Assembly: GCF_000226295.1 (NCBI RefSeq)
Contig: NC_016024.1
Coordinates: forward strand, 2,215,501-2,279,500
Reading direction: 5' to 3'
Origin: Chloracidobacterium thermophilum B
GTDB taxonomy: Bacteria; Acidobacteriota; Blastocatellia; Chloracidobacteriales; Chloracidobacteriaceae
Length of the DNA: 64,000 nucleotides
Part shown: in pieces, positions 58,537 to 60,777 of the stretch
How the letters are laid out: each line of letters starts with the position of its first letter
Numbering within the stretch: the stretch's first letter is position 1
Translations under genes and position numbers: made by a program
The notes under the pieces: model-generated
The model's input: only the letters and a program-made list of their open reading frames with translations
What the model was told of the DNA's origin: nothing
Database searches by the model: none

Positions 58537-59031
58537 TCAGCGCGCTGCCTGCAGGTGGGCTTCAAGAAACCACAGCCGCTTGTCCATCGCGCGCGAAATG
58601 CCGGTGTAGAGATCGGCCGTATCGGCATCGCCCAGTTCATCGGTTTCGGCAATGGCTGCCCGAACATGATGGGCAAATGGGGCATACCGCTCGGCCAGTG
58701 CCTTGACGTGATCCAGCCCGTCCTGAATGTCAGTGGGATATTCCGCCAGAATCGACTGCGCCGCCGCGATCCGCGCCGTTCCCAGCGCTGTACCACCCAA
58801 CGCCGTCACGCGCTCGGCAAGGTCATCCACGAAGCCGTCCAGCTCGGTCGCCATCTCGTCAAACATCTCGTGCAGGGCAATGAACTGCGGCCCTTTGACA
58901 TTCCAGTGGGCCTGTTTGACCTGGGTTTTGAGGTCGAGTGCCGTGGCCAACGATTGATTGAGAAGCCGAATGACCGCAACCCGAATTTCTTCGGGCAGGT
59001 CAAGGCGTGTTGCGTGCAGTTGCTCACCCAT
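58537..59031 (-). CDS. dps: Dps-family DNA-binding ferritin-like protein
   Basis: 164 residues from ATG 59031 with AGGAGG seven bases upstream. The inter-subunit ferroxidase ligands fit Dps: H42 in AHWNVKGPQF, H54, D58 and E62 region (LHEMFDEMATELD). The dodecamer stores iron and uses peroxide to oxidise Fe(II). The N-terminal tail is short, so DNA binding is uncertain. Clustered with perR and rubrerythrin. Confidence 0.93.
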   Translation of the reverse strand: MGEQLHATRLDLPEEIRVAVIRLLNQSLATALDLKTQVKQAHWNVKGPQFIALHEMFDEMATELDGFVDDLAERVTALGGTALGTARIAAAQSILAEYPTDIQDGLDHVKALAERYAPFAHHVRAAIAETDELGDADTADLYTGISRAMDKRLWFLEAHLQAAR

Positions 59032-59113: not shown

Positions 59114-59143
59114 TTACACGTAGCGCAGTTACACGTAGCGCAG
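59114..59143. repeat. 15-bp perfect tandem duplication at a gene end
   Basis: TTACACGTAGCGCAG occurs twice (59114-59128, 59129-59143). The second copy, read on the minus strand, is the last four codons plus stop of the FMN reductase gene; the first is an outside copy in the intergenic gap. Confidence 0.9.
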
Positions 59144-59644
59144 TCGCATGGAAGTTTCCGCCAACTCATCAACGCGGGCGGCGATTTCCGGTGAGATGAG
59201 TTGCCCGTCCTGGAAGTCGGCTTTCGTAGCATAGACGAAGCGCGGGACAATCACGGCCCGAAAATCCAGCATCAGGCTGTTGGCCAGTCCAAGCACTGAC
59301 ATATAGCTCCGCTGTCCGCCGGCGGCGCAGAGAAAGGCTACGATCTTGCCTGCCCAGGCCGGGCCGGTAAGTTCGACAAGGTTCTTGGCCGCCGCATTCA
59401 CATCGTAGTTGTAAATAGGGACGGCCAGCGTCACCACCCGCGCCTCGGCAATGAGTGCCGACAGGGCCGCCACGCCGGGGTCATCGTAGGCTGGCCCGCC
59501 ATCGCAGAGCGGCAGGGGATAATTGCGCAAGTCCACGAATGCCACCTGTCCACCACGTTGGGCATAAGCCTCCGTCACGTGGCGGGCCAGAATCCGGCTG
59601 TGGCTGTCCGTACGCAGTGACGTGGCCAAGACAAGGTATTCCAT
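59129..59644 (-). CDS. NADPH-dependent FMN reductase family protein
   Basis: 171 residues from ATG 59644; the longer frame to 59734 is not needed. It has the flavodoxin-like fold: an FMN-phosphate loop ATSLRTDSHSRILA, YNYDVNAAAKNLVEL and CAAGGQRSYMSVLGLANSL. Such proteins reduce FMN for use by other enzymes or act as quinone/azo reductases. It stands between rubrerythrin and dps, so it may deliver electrons for iron release or peroxide reduction; that is inferred from the place. Confidence 0.82.
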   Translation of the reverse strand: MEYLVLATSLRTDSHSRILARHVTEAYAQRGGQVAFVDLRNYPLPLCDGGPAYDDPGVAALSALIAEARVVTLAVPIYNYDVNAAAKNLVELTGPAWAGKIVAFLCAAGGQRSYMSVLGLANSLMLDFRAVIVPRFVYATKADFQDGQLISPEIAARVDELAETSMRLRYV

Positions 59645-59754: not shown

Positions 59755-60231
59755 TCAGCGCGCCGTCACTTTTTCCAGCGCCTCGGCATAACGCTTGGCG
59801 TGGGCTGCTTCAACTCGTCCAAAGGCTTTGAACTGTTTGGCAGCCCGCTGAAGCATAGCCTTGAACCGCTCGGCATGCTCACGGGATTCAGCCCCCTGCT
59901 CGATGAATTCCGCCACGGCGGCAGACTCCCCTTCCTGCCGCGCTTCTTCGGCAAAGGTCGGGTACATCTGCTCGGTTTCGTACATTTCGCCTTCATAGGC
60001 GATTTGAAGCAGCTTTTCGACGGTCATTTCGGACTCTGGATACATCAGTTGCAGGTGGGCAAAGGCGTGCCCGGTTTCTTCGTCAGCCGTACGCTCGAAC
60101 AACTGGGCGACTTCCTCGTTGCCCAGCTTGCGGGCAAGCTGGCCGAAGTAGAGGTAGCGGCGGTTGGCCATGGCTTCACCGGCAAAGGCCGCCTGGAGGT
60201 TCTGCTGGGTTTTGGTCTGTGGTTGGTTCAT
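59755..60231 (-). CDS. rubrerythrin-like diiron protein without rubredoxin domain
   Basis: 158 residues. Two helix pairs form the ferritin-like diiron site: Glu in LQAAFAGEAMANRRY, ExxH in ADEETGHAFAHL, Glu in AYEGEMYETEQMY and ExxH-type REHAERF. The rubredoxin C-terminus with Cys4 is absent, so an external electron donor is needed. It reduces hydrogen peroxide in the cytoplasm. AAGGAG precedes the start. A perfect palindrome at 60260-60282 lies in its promoter, and perR ends just upstream. Confidence 0.92.
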   Translation of the reverse strand: MNQPQTKTQQNLQAAFAGEAMANRRYLYFGQLARKLGNEEVAQLFERTADEETGHAFAHLQLMYPESEMTVEKLLQIAYEGEMYETEQMYPTFAEEARQEGESAAVAEFIEQGAESREHAERFKAMLQRAAKQFKAFGRVEAAHAKRYAEALEKVTAR

Positions 60232-60259
60232 GGTGTGGTCTCCTTCATAGACAAGATTC

Positions 60260-60282
60260 TGATTTAGATTTCATCTAAATCA
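60260..60282. promoter_or_regulatory. PerR/Fur-type operator in the rubrerythrin promoter
   Basis: TGATTTAGAT (60260-60269), TTC, ATCTAAATCA (60273-60282): a perfect 10-bp inverted repeat with A/T-rich arms and a short spacer, like Fur/PerR boxes. On the minus strand it overlaps the spacer and a -10-like TCTAAA (with TTTACC 17 bp upstream). perR is the adjacent gene. Confidence 0.8.
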
Positions 60283-60297
60283 GTGGGTAAAAAAATT

Positions 60298-60738
60298 TCA
60301 GGCCCCGGCCGCCTGGCCCGACTGGGCACAGTCCGCACACAGGCCACGCAAGGTCAGGTCGAAGCCCTCGATGACGTGCCGCCCCGGTAACGTGCACTGT
60401 GGCCACGGCCCGACCAACTCTGACTCAACATCCTCAACCCGTCCGCACTGACGGCAGACAAAGTGATGATGTGGCTCAAGGTTGGGATCGAAACGCATCA
60501 CGCCCCCTTCGTGGATTTCCATCAGATGCCCGTTTTCCCGAAGCCAGTTGAGCGTGTTATAGACCGTTGCCCGCGACGCCATGGGAAACCTGGCGTTGAC
60601 GGCAGCCAGCACCTCTTCGGCCGTCGGATGGTGGGTACACTGCTGCAAATACTCGACGATGGCCAGGCGCTGCGGCGTCAGCTTGAGGCCACGGGTGCGA
60701 ATCAGGGCAATTACTTCTTGGGCCGTGAGTCGTTTCAT
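60298..60738 (-). CDS. perR: Fur-family peroxide-responsive regulator (PerR-like)
   Basis: 146 residues from ATG 60738; the longer frame to 60789 begins inside the promoter. Winged-helix 1-80 (LKLTPQRLAIVEYL, ASRATVYNTLNWL). The metal-sensing residues match PerR closely: H37, D84, H90, H92 and D103, plus two zinc CxxC pairs (C95/C98, C134/C137). D84 in RFDP is the residue that sets PerR apart from Fur. It should repress rubrerythrin and other genes until Fe-catalysed oxidation. Own promoter at 60749-60777. Confidence 0.92.
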   Translation of the reverse strand: MKRLTAQEVIALIRTRGLKLTPQRLAIVEYLQQCTHHPTAEEVLAAVNARFPMASRATVYNTLNWLRENGHLMEIHEGGVMRFDPNLEPHHHFVCRQCGRVEDVESELVGPWPQCTLPGRHVIEGFDLTLRGLCADCAQSGQAAGA

Positions 60739-60748
60739 AACACTGGCT

Positions 60749-60777
60749 AGACTAAGTCCAAAAAAGGAATTTGTCAA
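60749..60777 (-). promoter_or_regulatory. sigma70-type promoter of perR
   Basis: Minus strand TTGACA (60777-60772), exactly 17 bp, TAGTCT (60754-60749), lying in the 47-bp gap between the kinase stop and perR. A small palindrome GACTTAGTC overlaps the -10 and may be a regulator site. Confidence 0.8.

Follow-up and report, generated by a model that had tools for sequence, protein, structure and literature searches.

In Chloracidobacterium thermophilum B, a perfect palindrome occupies part of the 66-bp gap that separates a gene for a Fur-family regulator from a gene for a rubrerythrin. The question raised by this locus is whether the palindrome serves the neighboring regulator and whether it yields a motif by which other genes under the same control can be recognized. 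A sequence-only reading had proposed that it is a candidate operator of PerR, a type of regulator whose circuits are best known in Firmicutes. The DNA analyzed here (the window) is a stretch of 64,000 nucleotides, positions 2215501-2279500 of contig C1, and the genome searched consists of two contigs with 3.70 Mb. Both genes were found as that reading had described them, and inspection of the sequence at 60260-60282 returned the palindrome exactly as stated, TGATTTAGAT-TTC-ATCTAAATCA, to which an extra pair, C60259/G60283, adds so that the arms are 11 bp long (Table 1). As argued below, this palindrome is very probably the operator of a PerR-type regulator.

The palindrome is real and beyond chance. 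With an order-3 Markov model trained on the window, 40 simulated genomes gave no match to the 23-mer at up to three mismatches. Likewise, perfect inverted repeats that are A+T-rich and have arms of at least 10 and a loop of at most 8 were absent from 20 simulated stretches of 64 kb (order-3 Markov). The window has one, namely this palindrome, and most of its other perfect repeats are G+C-rich. A chance palindrome in an A+T-rich gap might be suspected because the exact 23-mer has a single site in the whole genome and because a loose core, TTTAGATNNNATCTAAA, gave a weak count at up to three mismatches (17 places, the reversed control having 15). However, the element is conserved in all seven genomes of the genus and the simulations gave none; this reading thus has a negligible probability and is already refuted by the conservation. 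The same searches bear on the claim that the palindrome offers a concrete motif for a genome-wide search. Taken literally, that motif would fail its own test, since the 23-mer is unique and the loose core, which gave no signal, is not enriched; the exact 23-mer was accordingly rejected as a motif, and it is a 15-bp core that generalizes.

Table 1. Features at the perR-rbr locus (positions in the window)
Feature	Position	Strand	Remarks
Dps gene	58537..59031	-	NCBIfam Dps above cut-off; downstream of rbr
NADPH-dependent FMN reductase-like gene	59129..59644	-	Pfam; downstream of rbr
rbr, rubrerythrin-family gene without rubredoxin domain	59755..60231	-	158 aa, sulerythrin-like; Pfam PF02915
Ribosome-binding site AAGGAG of rbr	60240..60245	-	From the sequence
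25-bp palindrome	60259..60283	.	11-bp arms, 3-bp center; in the perR-rbr gap
Possible -10 TCTAAA of rbr	60263..60268	-	Inside the palindrome; assigned by eye
7-1-7 PerR-box core at rbr	60264..60278	.	TTAGATTTCATCTAA on +, TTAGATGAAATCTAA on -; 3 mismatches to TTAGACTNAGTCTAA
Possible -35 TTTACC of rbr	60286..60291	-	Assigned by eye; 17-bp spacing to TCTAAA
Weak terminator-like hairpin and T-run at the perR end	60289..60315	-	From a scan
perR, Fur-family regulator gene	60298..60738	-	PerR-type Asn61, Asp104; all metal ligands
Second PerR box TTGGACTTAGTCTAG	60747..60761	-	8 bp before the perR ATG; absent from the sequence-only reading
-10 TAGTCT of perR	60749..60754	-	Inside the second box
-35 TTGACA of perR	60772..60777	-	Same TTGAC offset at 20 of the 21 orthologous promoters with a box

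The usable motif is a box with 7-1-7 symmetry, TTAGACTNAGTCTAA, which emerged from a locus comparison among 28 perR orthologues, and the rbr box of the window is a diverged member of it. Within 110 bp upstream of perR, a box with at most three mismatches is present in 21 of the 28 orthologues (18 at two mismatches or fewer; mean of dinucleotide shuffles, 0.2), a count that is partly circular because perR promoters served to define the box; the matches at katA, katG, rbr and the di-haem genes are free of this circularity. At the same threshold, 13 of 27 loci have a box in the stretch that follows the perR stop codon (shuffle mean, 0.1). The seven orthologues with no box at up to three mismatches upstream also have none just after the gene. 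Outside the class, where 32 loci were compared, a box within two mismatches of TTAGACTNAGTCTAA and within 160 bp was found only at the acidobacterial loci L140-L142, and the cyanobacterial and other homologues carry other palindromes, e.g., TAAGAATAATTCTTA.

In the gap between perR and rbr, TTAGA and TCTAA of the box are invariant in all seven genus genomes and the flanks are variable. In several of these genomes, the bases on either side of the core at rbr stay symmetrical and yet differ among species (e.g., L020 and L022), a symmetry that is absent at the perR box, and a longer site or a hairpin role at rbr is possible. An RNA hairpin, acting as a terminator or attenuator on transcripts that read from perR towards rbr, might account for this retained symmetry, and a loose scan does list the palindrome as terminator-like (11 pairs, three of them G-C, tail AATCTTGTCT). 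Nevertheless, the stem is A+T-rich and its T-tail poor, a better hairpin with a T-run lies just upstream (60299-60315), the same core lacks the long arms where it occurs at the perR and katA promoters, and symmetrical flanks are equally expected of a site bound by a dimer, all of which makes the hairpin very unlikely. The T-run directly after the perR stop is kept in all seven genus genomes; in the window it comes behind a small G+C hairpin, which, judged by eye, is not obviously kept.

The sequence-only reading had let the palindrome cover the spacer and -10 of the rbr promoter. The arrangement TTTACC-17-TCTAAA is plausible by eye, but a consensus promoter scan found, at its threshold, no promoter-like site for rbr. 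This promoter has no TTGAC 16 bp before the box, where a T-run precedes the box instead. The best PDB match of the rubrerythrin is sulerythrin, and the FMN reductase-like gene and the Dps gene downstream are possibly cotranscribed with rbr.

The regulator itself has sequence features of a PerR protein. It belongs to the Fur-family fold (PF01475, 91.9 bits against a cut-off of 23.1), and its best PDB match is B. subtilis PerR, with an E value of 3.9e-21. Alignment with the latter confirmed the earlier statement that all PerR metal ligands are present: the five regulatory ligands used as the criterion for PerR, His37, Asp85, His91, His93 and Asp104 (PMC4866751), all occur in the window protein. 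Across the 28 orthologues, His37, His91, His93, Asp104 and Asn61 are found in every member, and Asp85 in 26, the other two having Glu85. Both CxxC motifs of the structural zinc site, usual in PerR although not universal, are present (Cys 96, 99, 136 and 139). Asn rather than Arg at position 61 is a criterion for PerR-box specificity (PMC8638851), and together Asp104 and Asn61 are published marks of PerR against Fur (PMC4866751, PMC8638851); the marks of an iron-sensing Fur, Glu104 and Arg61, are replaced in this regulator by exactly these two residues. In addition, a 7-1-7 operator-like box stands at its own promoter and at peroxide-defense genes. Scores with the NCBIfam PerR models remain well short of the cut-offs (93.9 bits where 180 is required, and 81.4 where 200 is), which in our reading reflects the lineage-specific nature of these models.

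Fur-family boxes resemble each other, and the genome encodes two further Fur-family proteins, so that one of these, of Fur type or of Zur or other type, might bind the box for metal control. This concern is sharpened by the Fur box of Riemerella anatipestifer, ATTTAGAATTATTCTAAAT, which is bound by Fur at Fur-regulated genes (PMC5609570), and whose core is identical to the variant TTAGAATTATTCTA(A) that is common in family f6 of the class. Because this nearly identical sequence is a Fur box (PMC5609570), the box sequence by itself does not say PerR. The decision comes from elsewhere. The box sits at perR and at peroxide-scavenging genes, both in this genome and in the class; the 200 bp upstream of the two paralogues contain no such box by eye, nor is there a place with up to three mismatches at them; and the combination Asn61/Asp104 occurs only in PerR among the Fur-family proteins of the genome, the paralogues having Arg61/Glu104 and Arg61/Arg104, the latter with Pro37. 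Control by a paralogue is therefore improbable, and the proposal of a PerR operator draws its support from the place of the core at perR and peroxide genes together with the PerR-diagnostic residues.

The distribution of the box over the genome is consistent with a small regulon. It occurs at one place with at most one mismatch, at three with at most two and at 15 with at most three, and 40 simulated Markov genomes predict 0.0, 0.15 and 7.4 places, respectively. The best match, which has one mismatch and is the only place at that level, lies upstream of katA; the places with up to two mismatches are those at katA and perR and one inside an ORF. The reversed control is commoner than the box, both in this genome (77 against 15 places at up to three mismatches) and in ten genomes summed (216 against 31 at up to two), so that the case for the box rests on the Markov expectation and on location. 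Catalase genes were found in two of the seven genus genomes (G000 and G006), among 28 genomes searched, and exactly those two have the box before katA. The sequence-only reading had named catalase, peroxiredoxin, hemerythrin and perR as the genes to look at. The box is present before perR and catalase, 12 loci examined among the 17 PF00578 (peroxiredoxin-family) matches of the genome have none at up to three mismatches, and no hemerythrin gene was found in the genome. In relatives, the box also precedes ahpC, katG, rubrerythrin and a gene for a di-haem peroxidase-like protein. A site with three mismatches shortly before an SBF-family transporter gene (L062) is probably due to chance, 7.4 such sites being expected at that level.

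The perR promoter carries the second box, and the earlier description of the locus, which holds for the operator at rbr, thus covered one of two candidate operators. Of the 21 perR promoters with a box, 20 have a TTGAC that begins exactly 16 bp ahead of it, the remaining one having TTTACA, and with this distance a TA[GAT]TCT hexamer within the box stands where a -10 with 17-bp spacing would lie. Furthermore, in 17 of the 21 the next ATG comes 6-8 bp downstream of the box (2, 13, 15 and 38 bp in the other four), from which the perR mRNA would be expected to be nearly leaderless. Both katA promoters share this arrangement, with TTGAC exactly 16 bp before the box. With moderate confidence, it can be proposed that over much of the class the PerR operator and the promoter form one fused element, TTGAC-N11-box, whose -10 (TA[GAT]TCT) would come from the right half of the box; that perR, which in most loci begins 6-8 nt downstream of the box, would have a nearly leaderless and self-shutting transcript; and that the element would mark almost the whole peroxide regulon (perR, ahpC, katA, katG and di-haem peroxidase).

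A scan of 162 genomes of the class at up to one mismatch gave 55 places in 42 genomes, all of which were inspected. Thirty-one adjoin a Fur-family gene, two katA, three katG, one rubrerythrin and four a di-haem peroxidase-like gene, two of these four being placed by likeness of the printed sequence only. The other 14 are not at recognized targets: two, one of them in perR-like surroundings, are at contig ends, six in ORFs and six before other genes. A search of 396 phylum genomes for the composite pattern TTGAC-N11-TTAGANNNANTCTA gave 45 places in 39 genomes, of which 27 are among the 47 from the class and 12 among the 349 others, against one match of the reversed control. Thirty of the 45 places were inspected, one per genome and not as a random sample, and in 29 of these the element has a Fur-family or peroxidase gene as its neighbor: 24 are directly before a Fur-family gene, one before katA, two before katG, one before a di-haem gene, and one lies between divergent Fur and di-haem-like genes; the thirtieth is near none of the twelve query proteins. 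The katA promoter of the window's genome matches the strict composite pattern, which the perR promoter of the window misses because it has TTGGA instead of TTAGA.

The genes that follow perR vary by family and, where recognized, are stress-related: rubrerythrin; AhpC with an AhpD-like (CMD) protein; glyoxalase-like proteins and then Dps; Dps; and Nramp. In some class members (L041, L042 and L043), perR is followed by a Dps-like gene, and in L043 an Nramp transporter gene follows (Pfam), L041 being alike in its printed sequence. At L044/L199 (G156:C38), the composite element separates the PerR gene from a divergent stretch that encodes a di-haem-like protein. Four class genomes have a secreted family with two CxxCH motifs behind PerR-type boxes (L079:1625-3004, L085:1756-3015, L088:6-1409 and L089:1-1261); the two members scanned have no Pfam match at 1e-3, and the family has a weak PDB similarity to di-haem peroxidases. 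Two distant PerR-like proteins (L074:113-511 and L135:1522-1923) are encoded downstream of a perfect box and upstream of an ahpC-type gene; the former lacks the structural-zinc cysteines, and the latter looks alike in its printed sequence.

Taken as a lineage-specific PerR box that would serve a small peroxide regulon, the palindrome can be assigned with high confidence as an operator through which the adjacent PerR would repress rbr, perR and katA at low peroxide. Carrying Fe(II) or Mn(II) at its regulatory site, a PerR dimer would bind the 7-1-7 core and cover the -10 region of rbr, and at the second box it would cover the -10 of perR itself. At low peroxide, rbr, perR and the distant katA would thus be repressed, with RNA polymerase blocked (at rbr, probably). 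H2O2 would oxidize a metal-bound histidine of Fe-PerR, and the protein would dissociate from its boxes; catalase, PerR and rubrerythrin, the last probably together with FMN reductase and Dps, would then be synthesized, after which autoregulation would reset the switch. The conservation and placement of the box, its overlap with the perR and katA promoters, the diagnostic residues and the target genes are read from the sequences; binding, metal dependence, peroxide sensing and repression would be as in B. subtilis PerR, whose mechanism was used as the model (PMC10294975).

The likeness to the B. subtilis system extends to the 7-1-7 inverted repeat overlapping promoters, the metal ligands, and Asn61 and Asp104. 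The targets correspond as well, the B. subtilis PerR regulon including catalase, Dps-type and perR genes. In contrast, the targets here include a rubrerythrin without rubredoxin domain, the NCBIfam PerR cut-offs are not reached, and the half-site is TTAGACT instead of TTATAAT. The B. subtilis consensus, TTATAATNATTATAA (PMC545781), is not matched, the rbr core differing from it at 5 of 14 positions by inspection; that consensus is lineage-specific and does not define PerR, and in the same 2004 report the predicted sites of delta-proteobacteria also depart from it. According to that report, delta-proteobacteria have perR-rbr loci with lineage-specific palindromes, one of which overlaps a -10 in Geobacter, so that this kind of locus was already known (PMC545781). 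Chloracidobacterium resembles these operons in having perR beside rubrerythrin, a lineage-specific palindrome and a small local regulon; the delta-proteobacterial boxes as given there differ (e.g., AATAGGAATCGTTCCTGTT), whereas the present box is alike over much of the class and has a fixed spacing to TTGAC. The Leptospira regulators PerRA and PerRB, to which the Asn/Asp criterion was applied, are described as without the structural-metal cysteines (PMC8638851), unlike the window's PerR, which keeps all four; the L074 homologue is also without them. An exact-string literature search with six forms of the box matched only the Riemerella Fur paper (PMC5609570). Searches of the open literature on PerR boxes with rubrerythrin, Leptospira and RegPrecise, on PerR or oxidative stress in Chloracidobacterium, and on PerR in Acidobacteria brought up no paper on this box; the box, its spread over the class and its fixed fusion to a promoter were not found in the open literature searched.

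The locus would add, beside the delta-proteobacteria, another case in which a regulator and its regulon are conserved and the DNA site has changed, and it makes a known type of control searchable in a little-studied bacterial group. For a bacterial class whose members are mostly uncultured or difficult to grow, apparently including Chloracidobacterium and its relatives, the box provides a concrete and testable candidate operator, and one short composite sequence predicts the peroxide-defense genes of the class with few false matches. If the fusion of operator and promoter is true, the peroxide regulon of an uncultured member could be read from its sequence alone.
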